In this document: positions 10,365-57,857 of the stretch, piece after piece
Position numbering within the stretch: the first letter of the stretch is position 1
Layout of the letters: each line of letters opens with the position of its first letter
Source: Bacteroidota bacterium
GTDB taxonomy: Bacteria > Bacteroidota > Bacteroidia > 2-12-FULL-35-15
NCBI GenBank assembly: GCA_947476185.1
Contig: CANJPX010000007.1
Location: 1 to 64,000, forward strand
Direction: 5' to 3'
DNA: 64,000 bases
Notes under the pieces: generated by a model
Database searches by the model: none
The model's input: only the letters and a program-made list of their open reading frames with translations
What the model was told of the DNA's origin: nothing
Position numbers and translations under genes: made by a program

Positions 10365-11396
10365 CTAGCTATTTTCTGCTATTTTATTTTGCTTTTCAAT
10401 TTGGTCAATACGTTTAACAATTGAATCCAGGTTGCGGAAATGAATGTATGCTTTTCTATATTTGGCAGCATCAAAGGCCGGAGAGCCCATATATACTTCC
10501 CCTTTTTTAGTAATACTTTTTGAGATCCCAGATTGGGCCGTAATAATTGTCTGATCAGCAATTTCAAGATGACCAACGATCCCGACCTGTCCGCTGAACA
10601 TACAATTTTTACCAATTTTTGAAGAACCGGCGACAACGCCATGCGCTGCAATGTATGTATTCTCGCCTATTTCAACATTATGCGCAATATGAACCAGGTT
10701 ATCAAACTTCACACCTTTCCTTAATATCGTTGATCCTAAAGTTGCTCTATCAATAGCACAGTTTGCTCCAATTTCAACATTATCCTCAATAATAACATTT
10801 CCTATCTGTGGAATTTTCTGGTTATCATTTTGCGGGTTAAATCGAAATCCATCGCTACCAATAACACTTCCAGAGTGGATGATACAATCTTTTCCAATCA
10901 CCGTTTCCGAATAGATCTTTACTCCTGCAAACAAAGTGGTATTATCACCAATAACAACATTTTCACCAATAAATACCTGAGGATATATTTTTACGTTATT
11001 TCCTATCTTTGCATTATCACTAACAACAGCAAATTCACCGGCATATATATCCGTTCCTGTTGTAGCAGTTTCGGAAATATAAGCGTGTTTTGAAATTCCT
11101 GTTTTATTAAGCTTCACCTGATTATACATTTCAAGCAATTTTGAAAATGCGGTCTCAGCACTATCAACCCTTATCAAGGTTGTATTAATTGGGGCTGTTA
11201 AAACAAGGTCTTTATTTACGATAACCAAAGAAGCTTTTGTTGTATATAAATACTGTGTGTATTTTGGATTTGCCAAAAAAGAAATCGATCCAGGTTCACC
11301 TTCTTCAATTTTTGAAAGTTTGCTGATTTTAACTGTTGAATCGCCTTCAATTTGTCCTTGCAAAAGTCCGGCTATTTGTTGAGCAGAAAATTCCAT
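10365..11396 (-). CDS. lpxD: UDP-3-O-(3-hydroxymyristoyl)glucosamine N-acyltransferase
   Basis: Left-handed beta-helix hexapeptides; GSVIGSDGFRFNPQ, NVEIGANCAIDRATLGSTIL, HIAHNVEIGENTYIAAHGVVAGSSKIGKN. Confidence 0.95.
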   Translation of the reverse strand: MEFSAQQIAGLLQGQIEGDSTVKISKLSKIEEGEPGSISFLANPKYTQYLYTTKASLVIVNKDLVLTAPINTTLIRVDSAETAFSKLLEMYNQVKLNKTGISKHAYISETATTGTDIYAGEFAVVSDNAKIGNNVKIYPQVFIGENVVIGDNTTLFAGVKIYSETVIGKDCIIHSGSVIGSDGFRFNPQNDNQKIPQIGNVIIEDNVEIGANCAIDRATLGSTILRKGVKFDNLVHIAHNVEIGENTYIAAHGVVAGSSKIGKNCMFSGQVGIVGHLEIADQTIITAQSGISKSITKKGEVYMGSPAFDAAKYRKAYIHFRNLDSIVKRIDQIEKQNKIAENS

Positions 11397-11447
11397 ATTT
11401 AATTTTTATTTAAAAAGAAAAAAACAATCATTTTTATATGCTGCATA

Positions 11448-12542
11448 TTAGGACTCATCCAAAGCCATCGCAACAGAATAGCCTCTCCACTTATTAATAA
11501 CAGAAAGCATATCCTGAGGAATGTCCGAATCAAAATGAATATATTTTCCTGTAATCGGATGATTAAATCCTAATGATTTTGCGTGCAATGCATGACGTGG
11601 TAAAATAGTAAAACAATTTTCCACAAACTGCTTATACTTGGCAAATGTTGTCCCTTTCAAGATACGGTCTCCGCCATAGGTTTCATCGTTAAACAAAGAA
11701 TGGCCGATGTGCTGCATATGCGCACGAATTTGATGGGTACGACCTGTCTCTAATTTACATTGTATCAACGTAACATATCCGAAACGTTCCAAAACTTTAT
11801 AATGTGTTACTGCATGTTTTCCTTCTTCACTATCGATTGGAAAAACATCCATTTTTTTTCTGTCTTTTAAATGACGACCAATATTTCCAGTTACAGTTCC
11901 TTCATCTTCTTGAAAATCGCCCCAAACAAGTGCATAATATATCCTGTCTAAATTCCTATCGAAAAAGTCTTTTGCTAATTTCACCATTGCTTTCTCACTT
12001 TTCGCAACAACCATTATTCCACTGGTATTTTTATCCAATCGGTGAACCAATCCGGGACGCAGCAAAGCCTGTTCTTTCGACTTTTTGGTAGCCTCGATTG
12101 TAGCAGCATATCTGCTTATAGGTAATTGCTGGAAATGATACGCCAAGGCATTCACCAATGTTCCTTTGTAATTTCCATAACCAGGATGAACAACCATTCC
12201 CGGATCTTTGTTCACGATGATCAGATCATCATCTTCAAAAACAATATTAACTGGAATATTTTGAGGGATAAGCTCCGTTTCACGCGGAGGGTGAGCGAAA
12301 ACAACGGTAATTACATCTAAAGGTTTTACTTTATAATTTGATTTTACCGGCTTATCATTAACCAGGATATTCCCATTTTCAGCAGATTGCTGAATTTTTG
12401 AACGCGTGGCGTTTTGTGTTTTGCTGATCAGATATTTATCAATGCGAAGCAGCGACTGCCCCTTATCAACAACCACCCTAAGGTGCTCAAACAGTTCCTG
12501 ATCATCATTGTCTTCTACTACATCTAAACCTTCTTCAATCAT
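11448..12542 (-). CDS. rluD: RluA/RluD family pseudouridine synthase
   Basis: S4 domain plus VHRLDKNTSGIMVVAKS catalytic motif and GRTHQIRAHMQHIGHSLFNDETYGG. Confidence 0.93.
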   Translation of the reverse strand: MIEEGLDVVEDNDDQELFEHLRVVVDKGQSLLRIDKYLISKTQNATRSKIQQSAENGNILVNDKPVKSNYKVKPLDVITVVFAHPPRETELIPQNIPVNIVFEDDDLIIVNKDPGMVVHPGYGNYKGTLVNALAYHFQQLPISRYAATIEATKKSKEQALLRPGLVHRLDKNTSGIMVVAKSEKAMVKLAKDFFDRNLDRIYYALVWGDFQEDEGTVTGNIGRHLKDRKKMDVFPIDSEEGKHAVTHYKVLERFGYVTLIQCKLETGRTHQIRAHMQHIGHSLFNDETYGGDRILKGTTFAKYKQFVENCFTILPRHALHAKSLGFNHPITGKYIHFDSDIPQDMLSVINKWRGYSVAMALDES

Positions 12543-30894: not shown

Positions 30895-32244
30895 TCAAGA
30901 TGATTTATTTTCACGCATAAGATAATATGTAATTAATAAAAAACTGACAAACTCAGGTAAATAAGCAATTCTAAATCGCACCAACGCACCAAAGTTCGCT
31001 GTCGAAAGACCAACAATCAATGAAAAGAAAACCGAATAAATAATACAAAACAACAACAAAGGATTGCCTGAAATGATTTTAATTAATTTCCTAAATTTAA
31101 ATTTCATTATTATAAAAACACTTATTAATAAATAAATAAAATTCTCGATTCCTGACAATAACATTACAACATTTTTAGATTCCCACAGAAACGGTCTGTA
31201 TAATCCAGCAGTTATTGCTGCAGGGGAAACCCCCATAGCTCCAGCGATTGTAGGTTCATAAGTTCCAATATCAAAAGAGTTCCCTGAATAATAACTTTGT
31301 TTGAGATCTGATTGTTTCTCTGATGCTTCATATAGTAATTTATTTATATCAAAGCCGCCAATACTGGTTAATATAAAAAAGCCTATCAACAAACTAGACA
31401 AAAGGCCAACAGGAATAATTAAATAACGAATTAATATATTTTTGATATTCAATATTTTTTCGTAAAAAATCCAAACAATTGAACCAGGAAGTAAGGTGTA
31501 TAAAATGTATGGCTTTATTGAAAGTATCACAAAGACAATAATTATTAATAATAAAAAATTTTTGATAGGCTTTTCCCTGATAATAAATAATTTATAAAAA
31601 ATATAAATATACCAACATGATGCAGATAAGGTGATTGTATCTTTTAATATCCCGGACCCCCAAAAAACAACAGAAGGAAGAAATAAAATTGCCACAGCTA
31701 ATTGTTTATAATACTTTAGGTAGTGATTTGAAAAAACAATATACAACCTCCAAATACCTGCAAAAGAAGCCCAAGAAAACAATATTGTTGTCAACATATA
31801 TCCCTTAAATGACAAAAGCATAAAGGGTACTAATAATTTTATCACAAAAAAAGTTTTTTGGTCGTAGAACATATATGCCCATGGGTATCCTGTGGTTTTC
31901 CCGTTAAAAAGAAAGTAGTTTTCAACACTAGGTCCTTCGGACATTACCTTAAAAAAATCTAAAGGCTTTTCAAGAAACAAATTTGTTAGTGCCCTTGCGC
32001 TCTCAAAATAGGAAATTGTATCTCCACCTTTATAAACATATATATAAACCAAACAAAAAACAATTGCTCCAATAAGTTTAACAAAAACACCCAATGTGTA
32101 AAACTTATAAATAGGATATTTTTTTATATTTTTTTGTTGTATCCAGTAAGAAATAAGCAAAATAAAAAAAATATAAATAGGAAAAGAAATGTATTCTGAT
32201 AATTCAAGATTATCCAAATAGCCAAAATTCTTAATCTCATTCAT
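30895..32244 (-). CDS. multi-pass membrane protein of unknown function (possibly polysaccharide-related)
   Basis: About 10 hydrophobic segments; GGDTISYFESARAL and LPSVVFWGSGILKDTITLSA; located at the end of the glycosyltransferase locus. Confidence 0.65.
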   Translation of the reverse strand: MNEIKNFGYLDNLELSEYISFPIYIFFILLISYWIQQKNIKKYPIYKFYTLGVFVKLIGAIVFCLVYIYVYKGGDTISYFESARALTNLFLEKPLDFFKVMSEGPSVENYFLFNGKTTGYPWAYMFYDQKTFFVIKLLVPFMLLSFKGYMLTTILFSWASFAGIWRLYIVFSNHYLKYYKQLAVAILFLPSVVFWGSGILKDTITLSASCWYIYIFYKLFIIREKPIKNFLLLIIIVFVILSIKPYILYTLLPGSIVWIFYEKILNIKNILIRYLIIPVGLLSSLLIGFFILTSIGGFDINKLLYEASEKQSDLKQSYYSGNSFDIGTYEPTIAGAMGVSPAAITAGLYRPFLWESKNVVMLLSGIENFIYLLISVFIIMKFKFRKLIKIISGNPLLLFCIIYSVFFSLIVGLSTANFGALVRFRIAYLPEFVSFLLITYYLMRENKSS

Positions 32245-54652: not shown

Positions 54653-54728
54653 TTCTATTAACTATCAGATGTGCAAAAATACATATTACTTGTTTTATAA
54701 ACCTGATAAATCATAAGTAAAAATCTGT

Positions 54729-54740: not shown

Positions 54741-55361
54741 ATGAACTTCTCCTCCAAACTAATCGAAGAAGCTGTAAATGAATTCAGTAAATTACCGGGT
54801 GTTGGTAAGCGTACAGCCTTACGTTTCGTTTTACATTTGATGAAACAAGATATTACCGAGGTCAATCAATTTGGAAATGCATTCATCAAATTGCGAAACG
54901 AATTACGTTATTGCGAAAAATGCCACAATGTTTCAGATAAACCTCTGTGTGAGGTGTGTGCAAACCCGAATAGAGACAGCAGCTTAACCTGTGTTGTAGA
55001 AGATATCAGAGATGTAATGGCGATCGAGAACACACAACAATATCGTGGCGTTTACCACGTTTTAGGAGGTATTATTTCTCCGATGGATGGCATTGGTCCA
55101 AGTGACCTGAACATTGAAACGTTAGTTCAGAAAGCCTCTACAGGAGAGATAAAAGAAGTGATAATGGCTTTAAGCACAACGATGGAAGGCGATACAACTA
55201 ATTTCTATATCTATAAACGGTTAAAAGATTTTGATCTGAAAGTTACTACTATTGCACGCGGTATCTCTATCGGTGATGAGTTGGAGTATGCCGATGAAAT
55301 TACATTGGGGCGTTCAATTGTGAATCGTACTCTTTACGAAAATTCGCTTTCCTTTAAATGA
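54741..55361 (+). CDS. recR: recombination mediator RecR
   Basis: [33 protein letters not shown] zinc motif; Toprim [13 protein letters not shown]...[16 protein letters not shown]. Confidence 0.98.
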
Positions 55362-55367
55362 TATTCT

Positions 55368-55412
55368 GATATACCAATTAGCAGATGTGCCGATATACCG
55401 ATTTAGCAGATG
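55368..55412. repeat. ~22-bp imperfect direct repeat (tgatataccaattagcagatg / cgatataccgatttagcagatg)
   Basis: Directly read immediately upstream of the S23 ORF. Confidence 0.85.
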
Positions 55413-55427
55413 AGTAAAAATTAATTT

Positions 55428-55796
55428 ATGGAATATAAAAAAGATAACCTGATTCTAGATCTTACATTCAATTTTTCATTAGAAATTGTAAAGTACACAG
55501 AACAACTAGAAGGATTAAAAAAATATAATTTATCAAATCAATTATTTAGAAGCGGTACAAGCATAGGAGCAAATGTGCATGAATCTCAAAATGCAGAAAG
55601 CAAAGCAGATTTTATTCATAAACTCAAAATATCTGCAAAAGAAGCCGAAGAAACAAAATATTGGCTAAAAATTTGTCAAAACTCGTCTAATTACACCGAT
55701 TGTAAGCATCTTTTATTGCAAATTGAAAGTATTAATAAAGTTTTAGGTAAGATTATCTCATCGTCAAAGACAAACTCTCAAACGTATGCACAATAA
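55428..55796 (+). CDS. four helix bundle protein (S23 / 23S-rRNA IVS family, Avd-like)
   Basis: DLTFNFSLEIVKYTEQL...LSNQLFRSGTSIGANVHESQNAESKADFIHKLKISAKEAEETKYWLKI, the canonical S23 signature. Confidence 0.95.
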   Translation: MEYKKDNLILDLTFNFSLEIVKYTEQLEGLKKYNLSNQLFRSGTSIGANVHESQNAESKADFIHKLKISAKEAEETKYWLKICQNSSNYTDCKHLLLQIESINKVLGKIISSSKTNSQTYAQ

Positions 55797-55819
55797 TCTT
55801 TTCATTTTAAATCCAATCG

Positions 55820-55851
55820 GCACATCTGCACATCTGCACATCTGCACATCT
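55820..55851. repeat. (GCACATCT)x4 perfect octamer tandem repeat
   Basis: Directly read: gcacatctgcacatctgcacatctgcacatct. Confidence 0.95.
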
Positions 55852-55901
55852 GCTAATACTCGTTTCGGCAGAACAATCACTGTTAACACTCAAGCCTCTA
55901 A

Positions 55902-57857
55902 ATGAAACTAAGTGTTATAATCGTTAACTACAACGTCCAACATTTTTTAGAACAATGTTTACATTCCGTGTGCAAAGCATCTAAGAATGTTTCTACTGAA
56001 ATATTTGTTGTCGACAATAACTCTGTTGATGGTTCAATTGCTATGGTGAAACAAAAGTTTCCCGAAGTTCAACTAATCGAAAATAAAAAGAATACCGGAT
56101 TTTCATTCGCCAATAACCAGGCAATGCGAATTGCAAAAGGCGAATACATTTTACTGCTGAATCCCGATACAGTTGTTGAAGAAGACACCTTTGAAAAGGT
56201 AATAGCCTTTATGGATACACATCCTGATGCCGGTGGCCTGGGTGTAAAAATGCTGGATGGCAAAGGAAAATTTTTACCTGAATCGAAACGTGGACTTCCT
56301 ACTCCAACTGTTGCATTTTATAAAATTTTCGGACTCTCCCGATTATTTCCAAGATCAAAAACATTTGGTAAATATCACCTGGGATTTTTAGATAAAGACA
56401 AGATACATGAAGTGGACATTCTTTCAGGGGCTTTTATGCTGATGCGAAAAAGTGCATTGGATAAAGTTGGTTTACTTGATGAAACATTTTTTATGTATGG
56501 TGAAGACATCGATCTTTCGTATCGGATCATTTTAGGAGGTTATAAGAATTATTATTTCCCCGAAACCCGCATCATACACTATAAAGGAGAAAGCACAAAA
56601 AAAAGCAGCGTAAACTACGTGTTTGTTTTTTACAAAGCAATGGTGATTTTTGCACAAAAACATTTTTCACAAAAGAATGCAAAACTTTTTTCTTTCCTGA
56701 TCTATTTTGCGATCTATTTAAGAGCCGGAGCTGCCATTTTAATTCGATTCCTAAAATCAATTGCATTACCGTCTTTTGATTTCGGATTAATTATGATTGG
56801 ATTGATCCTTATAAAAGATTATTACGAAAAAAATATCAAATTTATTCAAGGTGGTTCTTATTCTGACGCACTTATCTCTATTGCATTTCCCGCTTATATC
56901 CTTGTTTGGATGTTTACCGTTTATCTGAGTGGAGGATACGACAAACCTGTTCGCTTATTCCGAATCATTCGAGGTATTTTAGTTGGAACAGGAATTATTT
57001 TGATCGGATATTCTTTATTACCTGAAGCCTACCGTTTCTCAAGAGCCTTGATATTATTTGGAATGGGCTGGGTTGTTCTTTCGTATTTAATTTCCCGACT
57101 GACATTTCATTTTGCAGGATTCAAATCCTTTAATTTAAATCCCGATCAAAGTAAACGGATCGCCATCATTGGCAAACAAGAGGAATTTGAACGTGTAAGG
57201 GGATTGCTAAAACAAACAAGAATAAATACAAGTTTTTTAGGATTTATAAGTGCAGATGACAATGGAAATACTCACGAAGATTTTGTTGGCAATATCAATC
57301 AGATCGGAGAAGTAATTGAAATATACAAGATCAATGAAGTGATCTTTTGTTCGCGGGATATTTCCGCGCAAGGGATCATCGATTACATGCATACCTTAGT
57401 ATCTGCTGATGTAGATTTTAAAATCGCACCTCCTGAAAGTTTATCTATCATAGGAAGTAACTCCATAGATACTGCAGGTGATCTTTATATCATTGATGTA
57501 AATTCTATTGGCAAACCGAAGAATAAAAGAAACAAACGCCTGTTTGATGTTTTATCAAGTGGACTATTTGTAATACTTTCACCTCTTCTTATTTTATTCC
57601 AGGAAAACAAGATCGGATTTCTGAAGAATATTTTTTCTATTTTATTCGGTTTTAAATCATGGGTTGGTTATGGCCGCGACAAACATGATCATTTACCAAA
57701 ACTTAAACCTTCTGTCCTTTCACCTTCTGATGCAATAAAAAATATTCCAATTAATGCTGACACACGAAATCGCTTGCACCTTGTCTATTCAAAAGATTAT
57801 AAGATCGAAAATGATTTGAATATTGTATGGAAGGGAATTAAGAAATTAGGGAATTAG
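55902..57857 (+). CDS. GT2 glycosyltransferase fused to TM segments, CoA-binding-like domain and sugar-phosphate-transferase-like tail
   Basis: N-term LSVIIVNYNVQHFLEQCL...ENKKNTGFSFANNQAM...LLNPDTVV; C-term RIAIIGKQEEFERV... then KRLFDVLSSGLFVILSPLLIL resembling the start of PF02397. Confidence 0.85.
   Translation: MKLSVIIVNYNVQHFLEQCLHSVCKASKNVSTEIFVVDNNSVDGSIAMVKQKFPEVQLIENKKNTGFSFANNQAMRIAKGEYILLLNPDTVVEEDTFEKVIAFMDTHPDAGGLGVKMLDGKGKFLPESKRGLPTPTVAFYKIFGLSRLFPRSKTFGKYHLGFLDKDKIHEVDILSGAFMLMRKSALDKVGLLDETFFMYGEDIDLSYRIILGGYKNYYFPETRIIHYKGESTKKSSVNYVFVFYKAMVIFAQKHFSQKNAKLFSFLIYFAIYLRAGAAILIRFLKSIALPSFDFGLIMIGLILIKDYYEKNIKFIQGGSYSDALISIAFPAYILVWMFTVYLSGGYDKPVRLFRIIRGILVGTGIILIGYSLLPEAYRFSRALILFGMGWVVLSYLISRLTFHFAGFKSFNLNPDQSKRIAIIGKQEEFERVRGLLKQTRINTSFLGFISADDNGNTHEDFVGNINQIGEVIEIYKINEVIFCSRDISAQGIIDYMHTLVSADVDFKIAPPESLSIIGSNSIDTAGDLYIIDVNSIGKPKNKRNKRLFDVLSSGLFVILSPLLILFQENKIGFLKNIFSILFGFKSWVGYGRDKHDHLPKLKPSVLSPSDAIKNIPINADTRNRLHLVYSKDYKIENDLNIVWKGIKKLGN

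Follow-up and report, generated by a model that had tools for sequence, protein, structure and literature searches.

The window, as we call the whole analysed stretch of 64,000 nucleotides from a Bacteroidota bacterium (genome G000 in our collection), contains between recR and a GT2 glycosyltransferase gene a small open reading frame of the S23 four-helix-bundle type which lies between inverted sequences. An earlier note on this DNA had suggested that gene and flanks form a small mobile cassette, possibly mobilised in trans. The locus raises the question whether gene and flanks behave as one unit in related genomes and what defines the ends of such a unit. As argued below, the cassette of the window quite probably belongs to a family of compact hairpin elements, themselves non-catalytic, in which convergent arrays of 7- or 8-nt repeats enclose an S23 gene.

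Organization of the cassette

The features of the locus are compiled in Table 1. The inverted pair of the earlier note, ATTAGCAGATGTGC at 55377–55390 and its exact reverse complement at 55844–55857, was confirmed, and the second pair (55381–55394 and 55816–55829) is present as claimed. The two pairs are, however, really part of one array of period 8 on each side, and the described ends are one register of it. Tandem Repeats Finder gives a period of 8 and 4.8 copies for the right array, and for both arms together the autocorrelation excess is 0.34 at lag 8 versus −0.09 at lag 7. A packaged unit does exist between recR and GT2, but it is larger than the about 480 bp assumed before: as judged from the empty sites described below, the insert is bounded by the recR stop and the GT2 start (55902) and measures about 540 bp.

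Table 1. Features of the S23 cassette in the window and of the decayed cassette at the thiolase junction
Feature	Position	Strand	Remarks
recR, upstream host gene	54741..55361	+	Pfam RecR/Toprim domains
recR stop TGA	55359-55361		left edge of insertion
Left degenerate octamer array	55360..55414	.	begins in recR stop codon; convergent with right array; units GATATTCT GATATACC AATTAGCA GATGTGCC GATATACC GATTTAGCA GATGAG
S23 / 23S_rRNA_IVP / four-helix-bundle ORF, 122 aa	55428..55796	+	PF05635
Right octamer array	55816..55857	.	reverse-complementary to left array; units ATCGGCAC ATCTGCAC ATCTGCAC ATCTGCAC ATCTGCTA AT
Non-repetitive right tail of insert, up to GT2 start	55858..55901	.	missing from empty sites; similarity still recognisable in G003
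GT2 glycosyltransferase, downstream host gene	55902..57857	+	PF00535, E 7.8e-26
Decayed cassette L340	G000:C16, upstream of 10714-11886 (- strand thiolase)		

Inverted flanks were scored as the best local match between the 200 nt upstream of a gene and the reverse complement of the 200 nt downstream, and as controls we used 366 genes other than S23, located in the window or in 20 congener stretches of 20 kb (464 kb of the genus). The cassette of the window scores 22, a value reached by only three of the 366 control genes. When the whole insert is folded as RNA, GCAGAUGUGCCGAU is predicted to pair with AUCGGCACAUCUGC, which places S23 in the loop. The predicted arm pairing extends over at least 13 bp; as the z value of the whole cassette is −2.1 and 2 of 100 shuffled sequences fold equally well, the fold is modest evidence. 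A lone unit-like word, TCAGATGTGC, was also seen at 54665–54674 of the window, in the intergenic region 5′ of recR and about 700 bp away from the cassette.

The S23 protein

The assignment of the reading frame to the S23 four-helix bundles is borne out by a match to the PF05635 profile (E 1.8e-22; 80 bits, cut-off 33.8) and to TIGR02436, ‘four helix bundle protein’ (93.9 bits, cut-off 24). The AF2 model of the monomer has four helices (pLDDT 89.7), and its best matches in the PDB are 2rld (TM 0.7–0.8 for the query) and 2gsc (about 0.7). XCC0516, a solved S23 relative, is a homopentameric ring of four-helix bundles (PMC4990558). The S23 protein is under purifying selection: among the orthologues at the recR site dN/dS is 0.02–0.18 for the pairs with estimable dS, and these low values argue that the protein matters. 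A role as an anti-phage defence system was rejected, as the PADLOC model search for known systems of this kind gave no match.

Occupancy of the recR junction

recR and the GT2 gene are neighbours, with or without an insert, at all 34 junctions compared (31 congeners and three outgroups). The junction is readable in 31 congeners. Eleven of them have an S23 gene enclosed by convergent octamer arrays, and the S23 gene of one of these, G045, contains a stop. The empty site which the earlier note had envisaged, recR directly joined to GT2, exists as well: in nine of the 31 congeners and in two of the three outgroups (G030 and G039) the recR stop overlaps the GT2 start exactly as ATGA. Intermediate states are found in the other 11 of the 31 congeners, namely S23-less hairpin arrays in G019 (152 bp) and G012 (41 bp), a 12-bp remnant in G014, or unrelated sequence. 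Thus the order recR–S23–GT2 varies among relatives and the idea of a cassette survives this comparison. The arrays together with S23 are a unit which in close relatives can be present, absent or reduced at one and the same junction, and its loss or gain can leave an exact host junction.

Filled and empty sites are found side by side on well supported branches. G009, which is filled, and its sister G018, which is exactly empty, are joined with 100/99 support, and a clade with 99/98 support comprises G003 and G016 (filled) and G010 and G048 (empty). The presence of S23 at the recR site requires at least nine changes on the tree, which is equally readable as repeated precise loss or as repeated gain. 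For part of the pattern repeated loss is probable because an S23 protein from the recR site is most similar to others from this site, and a single ancestral gain followed by repeated precise loss is possible at this site. An ATGA-like duplication of 4–7 bp at the recR site coincides with the start and stop codons, and may be selected as recR stop and GT2 start.

At the same site the two arms tend to evolve in concert (18.3 versus 16.3), a trend which is not significant (p 0.07). The recR sites of G050 (L255) and G051 (L257) contain nested or doubled copies, with a truncated S23 gene and its arrays immediately in front of an intact S23 gene, and with long doubled arrays.

The thiolase junction and other loci of the same genome

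The junction before a thiolase gene is an independent second site. Nine genomes carry here S23 with arms of the GATGTGA type, and six have clean gaps of 6–9 bp. S23-less hairpins are present in G001 (GTATCAGG), G041 (GTATTAAG) and G017 (GATTTTTGATGTTAGA); further solo hairpins are short in G015 and G024 and of the CTCTGTG type in G042. The genome of the window has kept at this junction the 3′ end of S23 and a right array of the GATTTGAGA type, and this remnant is a decayed S23 cassette. That unrelated units occur at one and the same thiolase junction is hard to explain without separate insertions.

The ATTAGCAGATGTGC end does not accompany other S23 genes, the two other S23 genes of the window's own genome having different flanks. 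From the proposal of a mobile cassette we can therefore retain the variable occupancy, the precise empty sites in close relatives and the inverted ends, which are found at many S23 loci, but not the classical fixed terminal repeats.

Two loci of this genome were also observed. One (L004, G000:C11, about 31890–31990) is a solo inverted octamer array without S23 which has the unit type of the window cassette and folds at −23.8 kcal/mol. The other (L005, G000:C32, 12588–12902) is a second S23 gene, now a pseudogene with an internal TAA, at which inverted heptamer flanks of the AACTAAC type are kept.

Inverted flanks and repeat period in the genus

Many of the congener genomes are fragmented and gene ends were taken from simple rules; as part of the loci go back to common ancestry, counts are given by site where this matters. 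A score of at least 18 is reached by 75% of the 114 S23 loci in the genus (mean 21.5), as compared with 1.4% of the 366 control genes. When each insertion site is counted once, the proportion is 77% of 48 S23 sites versus the same 1.4% of the controls (p about 2e-37). If flanks are paired across loci, upstream of one with downstream of another, 3% reach 18 and the mean is 10.8. Since the match within a locus by far exceeds the match between loci, it belongs to the locus and does not reflect composition.

Autocorrelation of the arms was evaluated for 99 loci: 68 have their best lag at 7 and 26 at 8, with secondary signals at 14 and 16. Random 50-mers prefer neither lag. The units themselves are not the same at different sites (GATGTGA, AGTATCA/GGTATCA, AACTAAC, AATAGTT, CTATTCG, ACTTTGA, TTTGAAA, TAATACT and CCAACTG, and GATGTGCT-like octamers at the recR site). 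The common property of the ends is a period of 7 or 8 nt in convergent arrays, and the sequence varies by site.

It could be argued that such arrays are simply intergenic microsatellites grown by slippage and that S23 is an old gene which happens to lie there. Indeed the arrays are degenerate tandem repeats whose length changes quickly, and AT-rich genomes commonly contain short tandem repeats. Mere repeat expansion does not account for arms that are convergent and match within but not between loci, for control genes which lack such arrays, for random 50-mers without a preference for lag 7 or 8, or for empty sites from which gene and arrays are missing together. This explanation is already disfavoured and we regard it as very improbable.

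The period of the repeats goes with the clade of the S23 protein, also when the sites differ. On a tree of 38 sites the periods 8 and 7 cluster (7 changes versus 10.4 after shuffling, with 3–5 of 500 shuffles as low), and in the clade of the window protein all five sites sampled have period 8. A division by the solved subfamilies (2RLD-like versus 2GSC-like) was discarded as too coarse, since the 2RLD-like proteins divide 17:16 between the two periods, and the finer S23 tree was needed. It is mainly because the period tracks the S23 clade, and thus on indirect grounds, that we think the protein reads the arms. The median arm length is 34 nt or about five heptamers, which is compatible with a pentamer but no proof of it. 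Arm sequence is only sometimes shared by similar S23 genes at different sites: at a protein identity of at least 60% an arm similarity of at least 0.6 is found in 4% of the cases. The few pairs of this kind with like arms include L084 and L088 (79% identity, arm similarity 0.94).

S23 cassettes beyond the genus

We extended the analysis to plasmids and GTDB genomes, with 83 S23 loci in all; the GTDB sample was drawn with one conserved S23 motif and is thus biased to that subfamily. Inverted flanks with a score of at least 14 are found in 70% of these loci versus 5% between loci, and the best lag is 7 in 47 and 8 in 7 of 58 loci across phyla. The GTDB sample ranges over Pseudomonadota, Bacteroidota, Acidobacteria, Chloroflexi, Planctomycetes, Verrucomicrobia, Clostridia and candidate phyla to a Methanophagales archaeal MAG. 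On cyanobacterial plasmids the arms consist of AGTAGGG, GGGTGTA or GGGAACA units, and in plasmids of Pseudanabaena and Anabaena (L161 and L164) an S23 cassette separates cas6 from cas4 in CRISPR loci. GGGAATC arrays flank S23 on either side in Xanthomonas and Rhodanobacter, where the gene is situated between accB and accC (assigned by eye from the protein ends). In Azospirillum lipoferum an S23 gene with heptamer arms on both sides is located inside a 23S (LSU) rRNA gene.

Within the genus of the window the unit lies almost always in sense between co-directional genes: S23 and both neighbours point in the same direction at 37 of 39 sites (37% expected, p 2e-14). At two cyanobacterial plasmid loci S23 is antisense to its neighbours and the sense rule is therefore not absolute. 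The orientation would suit a regulatory module of the operon, that is a host-owned device for RNA processing or translation control which sits between co-transcribed genes, is selected and is lost when no longer needed; the strong purifying selection on S23 and the stem predicted in the RNA point in the same direction. The host genes are, however, functionally unrelated (recR/GT2, thiolase, accB/accC, cas6/cas4 and 23S rRNA), congeners do without the cassette at the same junctions, and one junction can hold different units in different species. We therefore consider a regulatory module unlikely.

Possible mode of propagation

In our preferred reading as a compact hairpin element the unit would be transcribed together with the host operon, and pairing of the arms would give a long stem whose loop contains S23. 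In the 23S rRNA intervening sequences a stem of this kind is cut by RNase III, and the stem around S23 might be processed in like manner. Such processing would insulate the host genes and allow the element to persist at little cost. The putative S23 ring would bind the arms, the repeats of the single-stranded RNA or DNA serving it as regularly spaced sites, and a ring that reads such sites would keep the period fixed while the sequence drifts. The TRAP protein is a ring that reads evenly spaced sites.

The turnover of the unit is evident at the junctions described above. Movement would be rare and, the element itself being non-catalytic, might depend on host replication, template switching or an enzyme acting in trans. 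Excision could take place by slippage between the short ATGA-like duplications, favoured by the hairpin, and would leave solo hairpins or clean sites. Among the sites compared no transposition event, no fixed-length target duplication and no excised form was seen.

The trans-mobilisation assumed in the earlier note could not be linked to an identified enzyme. Over 36 genomes of the genus the number of reverse transcriptases is unrelated to S23 copy number (rho −0.05) and the S23-richest genome, with 19 copies, has none. A reverse transcriptase acting in trans was rejected on these grounds, and such an enzyme is not needed for movement of the unit. Possibly the hairpins are substrates of a Y1 transposase of the IS200/REP type acting in trans, with S23 as cargo. 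Hairpin ends would fit this proposal, and in the 36 genomes Y1 and S23 copies are weakly correlated (Spearman 0.43, p 0.008, uncorrected for phylogeny or completeness). No Y1 match was found, however, in the genome of the window or in G020, G042 and G044, each of which has 2–4 S23 genes; moreover the ends have no common sequence, unlike those of REP/Y1 pairs, and the gene-specific period is left unexplained. That S23 is a passenger of Y1 thus appears rather improbable, even more so than the regulatory module.

GxxExxY genes and the wider class

The sole small control gene with array-like inverted flanks encodes a GxxExxY PD-(D/E)XK protein. Genes of this family (PF13366) are likewise enclosed by convergent arrays of short period (L262:4048–4452, L280–L309 and L311). 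At 29 GxxExxY loci of the genus inverted flanks of at least 14 are found in 86% versus 22% between loci. The case is weaker than that of S23 because units are common to several loci, hence the high value between loci. The best lags of the arms are 9–10 and not 7–8, with the unit types CACAGATTA, CTCTGTGG and CAGAGGACG. Every one of the 36 congeners has members of this family, and a genome can contain as many as 11. A copy on a Bacteroides plasmid, between radA and another gene, follows this pattern with CAGAGGACG units; copies in Treponema and Prevotella give no clear picture.

There is an even chance, in our estimation, that all these loci belong to an unnamed class of mobile hairpins whose ends are set by period and not by sequence, comprising S23 with 7/8-nt arms and possibly GxxExxY as a sister class with arms of about 9–10 nt. 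Solo arrays would then be a main source of the heptamers reported from cyanobacteria, Beggiatoaceae, Xanthomonas and Bacteroidota, and copies which had landed in rRNA genes would be what is known as intervening sequences there. Orphan ‘four helix bundle’ proteins, 23S rRNA intervening sequences, cyanobacterial STRR-type heptamers and the GGGAATC repeats of Xanthomonas would have a common partner, and it becomes a testable claim that the clade of the ring protein determines the period at which its own hairpin repeats. If this is right, a large number of insertions between the genes of operons which now lack annotation could be recognised, and for S23, discovered in rRNA intervening sequences, function becomes a question of binding.

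Comparison with known systems

Like MITEs and the REP/RAYT system (REPtron) the S23 units are small intergenic hairpins with gene-bearing and gene-less forms. Unlike these, the S23 ends are fixed in period only, and in place of a Y1 transposase there is S23, a helical bundle that is non-catalytic. A transposon with terminal inverted repeats or a MITE was rejected as the ends differ between sites and have only the period in common.

S23 also shares features with Avd, the accessory protein of diversity-generating retroelements. The S23 model shows weak structural similarity to 4dwl and to the DGR complex 8ub7, and a congener S23 weakly matches the NCBIfam Avd model (25 bits, cut-off 80). In contrast to these retroelements, there is neither a reverse transcriptase nor a template repeat near the S23 gene of the window, and the counts of reverse transcriptases are unrelated to those of S23. 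The cassette was rejected as a DGR: no reverse transcriptase is among the neighbouring genes, and the S23-richest congeners lack one.

In content the cassette resembles the intervening sequences in 23S rRNA of Leptospira and Coxiella, which carry an S23 ORF of about 120 aa between complementary ends and are sporadically distributed (PMC4990558). The Coxiella sequence has tandem GACAGAT heptamers 5′ of S23, whose number varies between strains; they were treated as a local feature and tied to no other repeats (PMC4990558). The window cassette likewise is an S23 ORF between complementary ends, but it has a period of 8 and lies between the protein genes recR and GT2, not in rRNA. A relative in Azospirillum does sit in the LSU rRNA, with heptamer arms on both sides.

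In period the arms resemble the heptamer repeats, namely the cyanobacterial STRRs, TAACTGA and GGGAATC, which have a period of 7, are intergenic and sometimes form convergent pairs. GGGAATC and GGGGA(C/T)T repeats have been described in Xanthomonas and Nostoc, with 70 convergent pairs in Xcc and S23 unmentioned (PMC4692102), and TAACTGA heptamers likewise without mention of S23 or of any partner gene (PMC4679880). Both sets of arrays were read as regulatory or G-quadruplex elements (PMC4679880, PMC4692102). In the open literature we found no paper which links S23 to the scattered heptamer repeats. Whereas the arrays of these two studies stand without a partner gene (PMC4679880, PMC4692102), S23 in Xanthomonas and Rhodanobacter is flanked by exactly the GGGAATC type and TAACTGA-like AACTAAC units flank S23 in the genus of the window. 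To sum up, S23 genes wrapped in arrays of 7- or 8-letter repeats across many phyla, even in rRNA genes, point to one overlooked class of compact hairpins.
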